64,000 nt of DNA, taken from NCBI RefSeq assembly GCF_031432975.1, contig NZ_CP133838.1, forward strand, positions 3,968,001 to 4,032,000, written 5' to 3'. Below, in pieces: positions 21,475 to 24,782 of this stretch. The notes below the pieces were generated by a model, which saw only the letters and a list, made by a program, of their open reading frames with translations, did not search any database and had not been told where the DNA came from. Source of the DNA: Buttiauxella selenatireducens. Its GTDB lineage: Bacteria; Pseudomonadota; Gammaproteobacteria; Enterobacterales; Enterobacteriaceae. The position numbers were made by a program, and so were the translations under genes. How positions within the stretch are numbered: position 1 is the stretch's first letter; each line of letters begins with the position of its first letter.

Positions 21475-21903
21475 TTAGTTGAGTTTGTAGTCGAGGGTAA
21501 TTTCAGCTTTTAGCAGTTGCGATACCGGGCAACCGGCTTTGGCTTTCTGAATAATTTTATCGAACACCGCGCTATCCGCGTTCGGCACTTTGACGTTGCT
21601 GGTTAGCGCAATTTTGGTAATGGCAAAGCCACCGTCGGTTTTATCCAGCGAGACATCGGCTGTCGTATCGATACTTTCCGCCGTATAGCCCTCTTCGCCA
21701 AGCATTAGCGAAAGTGCCATCGAAAAACAGGCTGCGTGCGCCGCACCAATTAACTCTTCCGGATTGGTACCGGCAACGCCTTCAAAACGCGTGTTAAAAC
21801 CATAGGGCTGTTGTTTTAACGCACCGCTCTCGGTGGAAACAGTCCCTTTTCCGCGCTTAATGTCACCTTCCCAGTGAGCCTGCCCTTTCTTATGAATGGT
21901 CAT
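21475..21903 (-). CDS. osmC: Osmotically inducible hydroperoxide reductase OsmC
   Basis: 142 residues (E. coli 143), opening MTIHKKGQAHWEGDIKRGKG. OsmC is a thiol peroxidase acting mainly on organic hydroperoxides. The two catalytic cysteines are visible in AHAACFSMALSLML near residue 60 and AGCPVSQLLKAE near residue 125. It converges on lldD and diverges from the TPR/sigma operon at 22062; the 158 bp between the divergent genes must hold both promoters. Confidence 0.96.
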   Translation of the reverse strand: MTIHKKGQAHWEGDIKRGKGTVSTESGALKQQPYGFNTRFEGVAGTNPEELIGAAHAACFSMALSLMLGEEGYTAESIDTTADVSLDKTDGGFAITKIALTSNVKVPNADSAVFDKIIQKAKAGCPVSQLLKAEITLDYKLN

Positions 21904-22061
21904 GTAATCGCTCCTCTTTTATTGACACGAACATCAAGTATAGAAGTTGAATACGGGCTTGCCCGGCAACTCAGAACAATCCTTGCAGCGAAGAAAAATA
22001 AAACGAATAAATTCGCGGTCCCGAGTGTTTACTGGTTACCGAACACCACGAGGGTACTACC

Positions 22062-22595
22062 ATGAAGCGTTTATACCGCCAACTCCTTCCCGCTATTGCG
22101 ACCAGTTTTCTGCTGTTTACCGGCTACGCTCAGGCAATGGGAGGTAGCAACGACGAACCGGTTCCTCCAACTTGCCCTAAAGGGCAAATTTATGACTCGA
22201 AAACCAAAACATGCATGGTCGATAAAGGTGGGATGATTGGGGATGAATCCCGCACCGATTATGCGTACGCACTGGCAAAAGCGGGCCGCTACCAGGAGGC
22301 GCTGGATATGCTCAACACGTTGAAAGATCAAAACACCGCAGAAGCCCTGAACTATCGCGGTTATGCCACCCGCAAACTGGGCCGTACCGACGAAGGGATC
22401 AGCTATTATTTAAAATCTGTGGCGCTTGATCCGAAATACCCCAAAGTCCGCGAATATCTGGGGGAAGCGTACATGATAAAAAATCGCCCCGATCTCGCTC
22501 GTGAACAGCTTGCCGCCATCAAATCCCTGTGTGGCACCAGTTGTGAGGAGTATCGCGATTTGTCCGCAGCCATCGACGGCCATCCCGAATCATAA
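22062..22595 (+). CDS. Periplasmic tetratricopeptide-repeat protein, first gene of an ECF-sigma operon
   Basis: A 177-residue protein with signal peptide MKRLYRQLLPAIATSFLLFT...AQA. A short segment with a cysteine pair follows (PPTCPKGQIYDSKTKTC), then about three TPR units between residues 65 and 150 (YALAKAGRYQEALDMLNTLK, ALNYRGYATRKLGRTDEGI, PKVREYLGEAYMIKNRPDLA). A second cysteine pair lies near the end (SLCGTSCEEY). It sits 12 bp before an ECF sigma gene and its anti-sigma gene. I infer an envelope role, either as sensor partner or as target of that system; no named homologue was recognised. Confidence 0.85.
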   Translation: MKRLYRQLLPAIATSFLLFTGYAQAMGGSNDEPVPPTCPKGQIYDSKTKTCMVDKGGMIGDESRTDYAYALAKAGRYQEALDMLNTLKDQNTAEALNYRGYATRKLGRTDEGISYYLKSVALDPKYPKVREYLGEAYMIKNRPDLAREQLAAIKSLCGTSCEEYRDLSAAIDGHPES

Positions 22596-22607
22596 TCGGA
22601 GGCAAAA

Positions 22608-23123
22608 ATTAGTAGCGAAGCGATACGCCGTGATCTTGCGCAATACCTTTCACGCCTGTGGCGTTATGGGCTGGTGCTCTCCCATCAGCGAGATATTGCC
22701 GATGATTTAGTGCAGGCCACCTGTGTGCGAGCCATTGAACGCGCCGCACAGTTTGAAGTGGGCAGCAGGATGGATAGCTGGCTCTTTTCCATCCTGCACT
22801 CCATCTGGCTCAATGAAGTTCGCTCGCAGCTTATCCGCCGCGGGCAAGGTTTTGTGGATATCGATGAACTCACGGGAAGCGAAAGCTGCGACGACCCTAT
22901 CTGGACAAACGACGTGATGAAACGAGTGGCTCGTTTACCCGAAGCCCAGCGTGACACGGTATTTCTGGTGTATGTGGAAGAGTTGTCCTATCGCGAGGCG
23001 GGCCAAATTCTCAATGTTCCTGTCGGAACCGTGATGAGCAGGCTCGCCACCGCACGGCTGACATTATCTCAGGACCGAGCACTTCAGCCTGATTCGCGCT
23101 CTGTAAAAGGAGAAGGTTCATGA
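22608..23123 (+). CDS. ECF-type RNA polymerase sigma factor, apparently starting at ATT
   Basis: About 171 residues. Region 2 reads LSRLWRYGLVLSHQRDIADDLVQATCVRAIERA, and region 4 has a helix-turn-helix (RLPEAQRDTVFLVYVEELSYREAGQILNVPVGTVMSR). The first conventional start in frame is GTG 22674, which would delete most of region 2.1. Upstream the frame stays open only to the TAA of the preceding gene and has no ATG, GTG or TTG. An ATT at 22608 sits 5 bases after a perfect CGGAGG and restores region 2, so it is taken as the start. The gene overlaps the anti-sigma gene by ATGA. Confidence 0.82.
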   Translation: MSSEAIRRDLAQYLSRLWRYGLVLSHQRDIADDLVQATCVRAIERAAQFEVGSRMDSWLFSILHSIWLNEVRSQLIRRGQGFVDIDELTGSESCDDPIWTNDVMKRVARLPEAQRDTVFLVYVEELSYREAGQILNVPVGTVMSRLATARLTLSQDRALQPDSRSVKGEGS

Positions 23124-23863
23124 CAATTACTGTCAATACCGATGAGCTGCTGGTGGCGTATCTGGATAATGAACTGAGCCCAACCGAGCGTCAGGCGCTG
23201 GAAGAACGCTTGAGTCATGATGCGCTTTTGGCTGAACGTTTGGTGCTCCTGGAGCGCAGCAGTCTACCGTTTAAATCCGCTTTCGCCCCCCTGCTGGATG
23301 CGGCTCCTGCCCCTCGCTTGCAGGCCTATCTCACTCCCCCAACGGCTGCGGTATCCCGACGCCAGCTTATTGCCGCAGCGGTGAGTTTTCTGGCCTTAGG
23401 TGTGATTGGCGATCGTGCTTTTCTGCACTTCTCTCAACCTGAAGAAAATTGGCGCGAATTAGTCGCTCAGTACATGGCGTTGTATACCGCTGAAACACTA
23501 GTAGACACACCGTTGCCTGAAGCACTGGAAAACCAACTGCGCTCGACGGGTCAGCAATTAGGTCTCACGCTAACGAGCGAAAAAATGATGTTGCCTGACG
23601 CAACACTGAAAAACGCACGGACGCTGGCTTATGAGGATCGTCGTATTGCGCAAATTACCTGGCTTGATCCTGCCAGCGGCCCATTAGCCCTGTGCATTAC
23701 AGGAAACGCAGGCCAGCCCATGGCTGCCAAAAGTGAACAAAGGCTGGGCATGAACATTGTGTTTTGGGCCGATAAAACCCATCAGTTTATGGTAATTGGG
23801 CATGGATCTGCGGGAAATATGAGTGAGATAGCTCAACGATTGCAGCGCAAAATCAGCGCCTGA
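23120..23863 (+). CDS. Membrane-anchored anti-sigma factor
   Basis: A 247-residue protein. The N-terminal anti-sigma domain (DELLVAYLDNELSPTERQALEERL) has the fold signature of zinc-finger anti-sigma factors but lacks the HxxxCxxC ligands, so it is not a thiol redox switch. One membrane helix at about residues 90-110 (RRQLIAAAVSFLALGVIGDRAF) puts the C-terminal ~130 residues in the periplasm. The ATG overlaps the sigma stop by 4 bp, indicating translational coupling and stoichiometric synthesis. The signal sensed is unknown. Confidence 0.87.
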   Translation: MTITVNTDELLVAYLDNELSPTERQALEERLSHDALLAERLVLLERSSLPFKSAFAPLLDAAPAPRLQAYLTPPTAAVSRRQLIAAAVSFLALGVIGDRAFLHFSQPEENWRELVAQYMALYTAETLVDTPLPEALENQLRSTGQQLGLTLTSEKMMLPDATLKNARTLAYEDRRIAQITWLDPASGPLALCITGNAGQPMAAKSEQRLGMNIVFWADKTHQFMVIGHGSAGNMSEIAQRLQRKISA

Positions 23864-23891: not shown

Positions 23892-24287
23892 CTAAACCGT
23901 CCAGTCTTGTACCTGTAAACCTGAAACACCATAGAAAGCGCGATCGCTGGTAATTAGGGTTGTTTTTTCACTTAACGCATGGGCCGCGATAAGCATATCG
24001 AGAGCCCCCATAACGTGCCCTTTCTTCTCCATGCTCGCCCTTAGCTTACCGTAAGTTTCCGCAGCAACACTGTCCCAGTCATAGATTGAAACCGCATCAA
24101 GAAACCCCATTACGGCGGCTTTAAGCGCTTTATTTTTCCGTTTCTCCACACCAAAAAGCAGTTCCGCTTCTGTAATACTTGAAATCGAGATACTTGATGG
24201 AGGAACTGCGGATATTCTGGCAACAATTTGCGGATGCTGGCGCAAAAAATAGCTCACCGTATTGGTATCCAGCATGTATGTCATCAT
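23892..24287 (-). CDS. vapC: VapC-type PIN-domain toxin
   Basis: A 131-residue PIN-domain endoribonuclease toxin. The conserved acidic residues for metal binding are visible: Asp in YMLDTNTVSYFL, Glu in ITEAELLFGVEKR, Asp in MGALDMLIAAHAL and Asp in LITSDRAFYGV. The start overlaps the vapB stop (ATGATG gives two adjacent candidate ATGs). VapC enzymes of enterobacteria typically cut initiator tRNA; that activity is inferred from the family. Confidence 0.92.
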   Translation of the reverse strand: MMTYMLDTNTVSYFLRQHPQIVARISAVPPSSISISSITEAELLFGVEKRKNKALKAAVMGFLDAVSIYDWDSVAAETYGKLRASMEKKGHVMGALDMLIAAHALSEKTTLITSDRAFYGVSGLQVQDWTV

Positions 24288-24547
24288 TTAATTCCCGCAA
24301 AAGGATCTCTGTCAGCTGGAGGCTGATTGCGCTCCTCCGCATCAAGGAAATTATCAGGAACACGGGCCTTTTTTATCAGTGAAATCACATTATCCCAGTT
24401 GTCTGGTTTTGCTGGTTTTTTTGAAAGAATCACATTCCCTTCCTTGTCTTGTCGGATATACACCCTGTCAGTATCGAACTCAAACTCCACCGGTAACCTC
24501 ACCGCCTGGTTTCTGCCATTTTTAAAAAGCTTAGCAATGCGCTCCAT
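24284..24547 (-). CDS. vapB: VapB-type antitoxin
   Basis: An 87-residue antitoxin with an N-terminal AbrB-like DNA-binding domain (MERIAKLFKNGRNQAVRLPVEF, as in VagC/VapB) and a charged C-terminal tail ending DRDPFAGIK that would wrap the toxin. The ATG at 24547 follows GGGAGAAGGTA; the open frame continues upstream but lacks homology. It is the first gene of the leftward pair and overlaps vapC by 4 bp. VapB-VapC complexes normally repress their own promoter. Confidence 0.9.
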   Translation of the reverse strand: MERIAKLFKNGRNQAVRLPVEFEFDTDRVYIRQDKEGNVILSKKPAKPDNWDNVISLIKKARVPDNFLDAEERNQPPADRDPFAGIK

Positions 24548-24782
24548 TACCTTCTCCCGATACAATTCTGGCCTATGCCAAAGCATAGGCCTTTTATTGA
24601 CGTTAGCCAACATACCAGAAAGAAGAGACCGTTAAATAGCCAGAAGAAAGTAGCGCCTTTAACTGTGTTTCGCTCGACCTTTTTCCAGGAAGAATTTGAT
24701 TCTGCGAAGAGTTTCCACAGGAAATGAAACAAGCATCAAGGTAACAAAAATAACCTGGATGAAACTCGCAATTTGGAATGTT

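Follow-up and report, generated by a model that had tools for sequence, protein, structure and literature searches.

Comparative evidence that an ECF sigma factor gene of Buttiauxella selenatireducens starts at a conserved weak codon

Introduction

In Escherichia coli, infC and pcnB start at AUU and are subject to IF3 discrimination. For infC, rejection of the AUU by IF3 is established, and the gene has an IF3 feedback loop of its own. To our knowledge, starts at AUU, AUC or AUA have been described for only a handful of bacterial genes. Among sigma factors, Feeney et al. (2017, PMC5472188) describe Streptomyces sigR as a gene that starts at GTC and is repressed by IF3; when GTC was exchanged for a canonical codon, the sigma factor exceeded its anti-sigma factor and the regulon was constitutively on. 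According to the same report, enhanced translation under oxidative stress could not be shown by the authors, and the codon was found in Streptomyces, with no evidence for it in other actinobacterial genera. In the open-licence literature, we found no paper on an ECF sigma factor initiated at AUC or on a sigma factor that starts with ATC, and sigR was the only sigma factor with a non-canonical start among the matches listed, judged from titles and the beginnings of abstracts.

Here we describe an ECF sigma factor gene in a stretch of 64,000 nucleotides from B. selenatireducens (contig NZ_CP133838.1; hereafter the window, to which all coordinates refer). An earlier note, made from the sequence of the window, had proposed that this gene initiates at ATT 22608. 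Comparison with orthologues strongly supports this proposal and places the codon within a lineage that has probably kept a weak start through long evolution.

Results

Comparison with orthologues shows that the sigma gene lies in the middle of a conserved three-gene operon, between a TPR gene and an anti-sigma gene. The first gene (22062–22595, +; TAA at 22593–22595) encodes a TPR protein (Pfam TPR_16 and others) with an apparent signal peptide, judged by eye, and a TPR end motif lies 5′ of the sigma gene in 126 of the 134 orthologous loci described below. After the TAA, the sigma frame reads TCG GAG GCA AAA ATT AGT AGC. As the earlier note had stated, the Shine-Dalgarno sequence CGGAGG (22597–22602, +) is separated by five bases (22603–22607) from the ATT (22608–22610, +), and the frame holds no ATG, GTG or TTG between the TPR stop and the GTG at 22674–22676 (+), where the list of open reading frames begins its product of 149 aa. 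Read from the ATT, the predicted protein has 171 aa (22608–23123, +; TGA at 23121–23123) and matches Sigma70_r2, Sigma70_r4_2 and TIGR02937; these profile matches comprise regions 2 and 4 only, as in ECF sigma factors, and its best NCBIfam match was PRK12511 at 106.7 bits, below the cut-off of 185. Codons 1–22 (22608–22673, +), absent from the GTG product, would encode the start of region 2.1.

The third gene (23120–23863, +) encodes a putative anti-sigma factor with an N-terminal zf-HC2 match (residues 8–29) and, by eye, one apparent membrane segment. Its ATG overlaps the sigma stop (ATGA) and follows a separate Shine-Dalgarno sequence, AGGAG (23108–23112, +), 7 nt upstream. Among the orthologous loci, where canonical codons alone were sought, the anti-sigma gene had a canonical start in 130 of 134; in 110 of the 134, this start had an offset of −1 relative to the sigma stop.

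The operon is preceded by a divergently oriented OsmC-like peroxidase gene (21475–21903, −), named by eye from its translation, and in some Pantoea and Cronobacter plasmids the orthologous operon has YceI or cytochrome b genes as neighbours. From these neighbours, one may guess at envelope oxidative stress as the input. The main text of a study on a lipocalin and cytochrome b561 (PMC9113575) does not contain the terms "sigma factor", "ECF" or "RpoE". Just 3′ of the anti-sigma gene, the translations suggest by eye a VapBC-type pair of a PIN-domain toxin and its antitoxin (23892–24613, −).

To place the gene among its relatives, we gathered 182 loci; 17 paralogue loci (L011–L027) were left out beforehand, and the remaining 165, which came from searches at the level of genus, family, class and phylum, from named genomes (the best 80 of 379 loci) and from three plasmid records, comprised 148 distinct sequences. 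A tree of 145 sequences was built by a quick method under LG+G4, with L149, L181 and L182 left out as short. In this quick tree, 134 sequences from Enterobacterales, Pseudomonas and Rhizobiales formed one clade (SH-aLRT 93), with L146 and ten distant ECFs as outgroups. Since the 134 rows represent many species but few genera, the counts below are not independent events. A blastn search of ecoli_genomes returned no match to the gene at the DNA level. Two genomes of the window's family carry interrupted copies of the sigma gene with internal stops, L181 and L182, which keep ATC and ATT, respectively.

At the site of the ATT, the 134 distinct orthologues carry ATC (102), ATA (17), ATT (13), GTG (1, L038) or ATG (1, L114), the first codon being counted where two ATH codons are adjacent. 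GTC or GTT was found at the counted site in 0 of 134; L038 has GTC directly before its GTG. The ATG that the earlier note had suggested seeking at the same codon in relatives thus occurs in a single orthologue against ATH in 132, which strengthens the case for the ATT start, and L114 and L038 indicate that the weak start can be lost or had not yet been gained. When the 134 rows were analysed on a tree together with L146 (135 rows), at least 14 changes were needed for the codon, in a run whose caller labels three ATC rows ATA, and at least 3 for ATH versus canonical. GGAGG or a shorter Shine-Dalgarno match precedes the site in nearly the whole clade; the caller found none in L045 and L048. An upstream in-frame canonical start is missing in 69 of 134 orthologues, and in 41 it is missing through residue 21 as well; in 10, an in-frame stop lies at most two codons upstream of the site. 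Several observations count against an ATH start: some canonical codon occurs upstream in frame in 65 of 134, Rhizobiales included; ATG stands directly before the ATC in L120 and two codons before it in L141; and an in-frame GTG overlaps the Shine-Dalgarno sequence in L003, L034–L036 and L075.

The gene was present in 10 of 12 genomes of the same genus, the window's own included, with ATT in 3 and ATC in 7, all preceded by GGAGG at a spacing of 5. Because these 10 genomes and 132 of the 134 orthologues agree, the ATT reflects neither chance nor an assembly error. In the same genome, infC served as a positive control and reads ATT AAA GGC GGA AAA at what we take to be its start. Public annotation handles the site poorly: across eight records, the annotated start lies −5, 0, 5, 5, 13, 21, 22 and 34 codons from the ATC, which amounts to seven different places, and only one of the eight uses the ATC. 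The record furthest off, L155 (LR134125.1, Klebsiella aerogenes NCTC10006), names the ECF sigma factor "sigma-54 factor RpoN", with a start placed 34 codons too far downstream; this 770-kb "plasmid 5", which has hut genes, may represent a chromosomal fragment. A conserved RNA structure over the start was not detected by RNAalifold in 16 sequences (6 pairs, none changed on both sides), and six single folds gave z between −1.35 and 0.69.

The spacing of the TPR and sigma genes bears on why an ATH codon would be kept. The TPR stop lies 12 nt upstream of the ATT in the window, and the median distance among orthologues is 24 nt, so that the ATT could be the true start and yet be retained for reinitiation by ribosomes that have terminated on the TPR gene, not for IF3 discrimination. 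We regard this as improbable, given that the distances range up to 168 nt, that the upstream gene can differ and that reinitiation has no need for a weak codon. A start at the ATT that limits initiation by its mismatch is the reading we prefer.

We then compared rates of change on either side of the site by the Nei-Gojobori method in five sets; because synonymous change is high, the dN/dS ratios are rough. For codons 2–22, the six codons before the site and codons 2–8, respectively, dN/dS was 0.14, 0.55 and 0.20 in nine Buttiauxella; 0.14, 0.58 and 0.20 in 13 of the 14 rows of the Buttiauxella clade; 0.03, 0.82 and 0.08 in eight Serratia; 0.09, 0.87 and 0.19 in 14 Pseudomonas; and 0.10, 1.16 and 0.48 in ten Rhizobium. 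By this measure, codons 2–22 evolve as protein and the six codons before the site do not; the ratios for codons 2–8 indicate weaker constraint at the very N-terminus, most markedly in Rhizobium. Furthermore, R7 and R16–Y20, all encoded before GTG 22674, are invariant in 35 aligned proteins. Among 18 solved sequences matched, several ECF sigma factors (5uxx, 6jcy, 1h3l) align from residues 5–7. An AlphaFold model of the sigma factor (mean pLDDT 58) gives weak support for helices at residues 3–11 and 14–26. Small residues at position 2 favour removal of the start methionine, and the presence of A, T, S or V there in 123 of 134 orthologues fits such removal.

These data bear directly on the possibility that translation starts at GTG 22674 and that the preceding region is a 5′ untranslated leader. 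In its favour, the GTG is the first canonical codon in frame, and three of the eight annotated orthologue records start at offsets of 21, 22 and 34 codons. It nevertheless appears very improbable, and we reject it for the window's sigma factor: the codons that it would leave untranslated show protein-type evolution, and the product would lack the invariant RLWRY along with a large part of the first helix of region 2. No Shine-Dalgarno sequence was seen by eye before the GTG, and the eight annotated records use seven different offsets. In line with the earlier note, which held that region 2 needs residues before this GTG (residue 23), the Sigma70_r2 match begins at residue 12 and that of PhyR_sigma2 at residue 10; orthologues devoid of the region, which the note had named as counter-evidence, were not encountered. 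The GTG would accordingly encode an internal valine.

Rhizobiales required separate attention, as their frame is open to an ATG or GTG at about codon −35 and codons −34 to −24 form a conserved block, with pN/pS of 0.22 and 0.53 in two Rhizobium sets. This block looks constrained and counts against an ATH start, in that the ATH could be a conserved internal isoleucine of a longer protein started upstream. For codons −23 to −6, however, pN/pS was 1.14 and 1.09 in the two sets, and the Shine-Dalgarno codons of 15 Rhizobium loci showed almost no synonymous change (pS 0.005). An unconstrained interval followed by frozen Shine-Dalgarno bases supports the AUH start there too. Moreover, an upstream start is impossible with canonical codons in the window and in 69 of the 134 orthologues, 10 of which have a stop within two codons. 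We judge a longer protein highly unlikely overall and reject it for the window, where the frame offers no upstream canonical codon. In L071, L087, L074 and other Rhizobiales, the conserved block between the TPR and sigma genes ends in TTYCYGCYTATAGT, about 70–105 nt before the ATH, and is preceded by an in-frame ATG or GTG; this block may act as an internal promoter or mark where a longer, SigR′-like isoform begins. Production of the sigma factor as a fusion to the TPR protein, by read-through or frameshifting, is scarcely credible and is rejected for the window: the two open reading frames share a frame there, 12 nt apart, but across 126 loci the distance from the TPR stop to the site varies between 12 and 168 nt and the stop occurs in all three frames (51/38/37), which excludes conserved read-through or a fixed frameshift, while the TPR protein looks exported by eye and the sigma factor must be cytoplasmic, and two Cronobacter plasmids have a cytochrome b gene in place of the TPR gene. 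The fusion that the earlier note had allowed for thus found no echo in the orthologues.

Taken together, ATH codons at the orthologous site, the many orthologues lacking a canonical start upstream and the protein-like evolution of codons 2–22 strongly support ATT 22608 as the start of sigma translation.

We also considered whether the weak start is a property of related ECF genes or of their hosts. The Rhizobiaceae sample drew on 151 genomes and, in addition, on the match that a scan of 346 genomes gave to the published rpoE1 promoter; 31 loci were examined, and 13 further match places were left out. In the four loci that carry the TPR end motif, GGAGG is followed by ATC (three of these loci belong to genomes already among the 134), whereas the other 27 have canonical starts: an in-frame ATG, GTG or TTG, in most cases no more than five codons away from the homologous place. 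One of the 27, L216, carries ATT at the site, but an ATG stands three codons ahead of it and GGAGG is missing. L195, the presumed rpoE1 of Sinorhizobium meliloti, starts at an ATG 15 codons before the homologous place, and the annotated relatives in Sinorhizobium (L193) and Phaeobacter (L194) are annotated from ATG. As a negative control, the motif that we take to mark the start of rpoE occurred at 12 places among the 17 paralogue loci, all in same-genus genomes, and had ATG in every case. Together with the 27 canonical loci, this indicates that the weak start belongs to this operon, and not to ECF sigma genes or the host in general.

Upstream of the TPR gene lies a putative operon promoter resembling those of ECF26, CGAATAA-N14-GTGTTT (22004–22030, +). 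It is one of three exact matches in the genome; as the other two lie inside open reading frames and a reversed control pattern gave one match, we claim no regulon. A looser motif, xGAATA-N14-16-GYGT at 480–1000 nt upstream of the sigma start, occurs in 98 of 134 orthologous loci, against 0.83 expected from single-base shuffles. This variant has C or T for the first G of the ECF26 −35 element GGAATA (−10 GT), and the exact GGAATA was not found at any site shared among the orthologues upstream of the operon. The published S. meliloti SMc01418-rpoE1 promoter, given as GAATAA-N14-GTGT in PMC6180224, has the same spacing by eye. Conservation of a motif with this spacing points to autoregulation, and the operon is probably autoregulated.

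Discussion

The explanation that we favour, and to which we attach considerable though not complete confidence, is that of an ATT-started ECF sigma factor in a TPR–sigma–anti-sigma operon, translated at a rate limited by IF3 and hence made in smaller amounts than its anti-sigma factor. An AUH start (AUU, AUC or AUA) would leave its third base mismatched with the initiator tRNA and, combined with a near-perfect Shine-Dalgarno sequence, would let ribosomes bind well yet rarely commit, because IF3 rejects initiation complexes without a matched start codon. The anti-sigma gene, with its ATG and its own Shine-Dalgarno sequence, would then outpace the sigma gene, and an autoregulated loop with sigma below anti-sigma would stay silent until the anti-sigma factor is inactivated. 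A self-activating sigma factor would need such a low set point. By analogy with the described cases, low sigma output via IF3 discrimination is plausible. Coupling of the sigma factor to translation quality, which the earlier note had raised, is speculation. In its strongest form, the AUH start would act as a sensor of initiation fidelity, such that loss of or damage to IF3 raises sigma over anti-sigma and fires the loop, with the state of translation as the inducing signal in two proteobacterial classes; we consider this a long shot.

That a clade spanning two proteobacterial classes uses AUH, whereas the ECF relatives examined use canonical codons, suggests selection for a weak start, probably one kept to hold a stress-response regulator low in many soil-dwelling and enteric bacteria. 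There is also a practical side. Annotated N-termini are often wrong, with seven of eight checked public records missing the AUH codon, and clones whose insert begins with ATG or with the annotated codon would give a false picture of the regulation.

Several described systems resemble this one in part. A Brucella ECF system (PMC8315932), assigned to ECF16, was set aside as a comparison. Closer in architecture is the S. meliloti RpoE1 operon SMc01418-rpoE1-ecfR1 (ECF26), which according to PMC6180224 and PMC3511301 has the same layout of a secreted-protein gene, a sigma gene and an anti-sigma gene. Its presumed representative here, L195 (genome G1373, with the exact published rpoE1 promoter), starts at ATG, unlike the clade, is 35% identical to a Rhizobium clade member and has no TPR motif upstream, and we therefore reject S. 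meliloti RpoE1 as an orthologue. With infC and pcnB, the gene shares, on comparative grounds, an AUH codon at the true start that is conserved as such, but neither of those is a sigma factor. RsrA-like anti-sigma factors carry the zinc-binding motif HxxxCxxC; the product of 23120–23863 differs in having no Cys in its first 60 residues, and thus no such motif.

The closest precedent is Streptomyces sigR-rsrA, as set out in the report cited above: an ECF-type sigma factor in a sigma/anti-sigma operon, with a non-canonical start and an extended Shine-Dalgarno sequence, an ATGA overlap with an independently translatable anti-sigma gene that has a canonical start, and misannotated starts. The in-frame GTG over the Shine-Dalgarno sequence in L003, L034–L036 and L075 recalls the misannotated GTG of sigR described there. 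In contrast to sigR (GUC/GUU), the codon here is AUH and is retained in both Gamma- and Alphaproteobacteria, the operon begins with a TPR gene, and the window, with no in-frame upstream canonical codon, would yield no longer isoform from an upstream ATG. Considered alongside Streptomyces sigR, the operon suggests that start-codon throttling to set sigma:anti-sigma ratios arose more than once.
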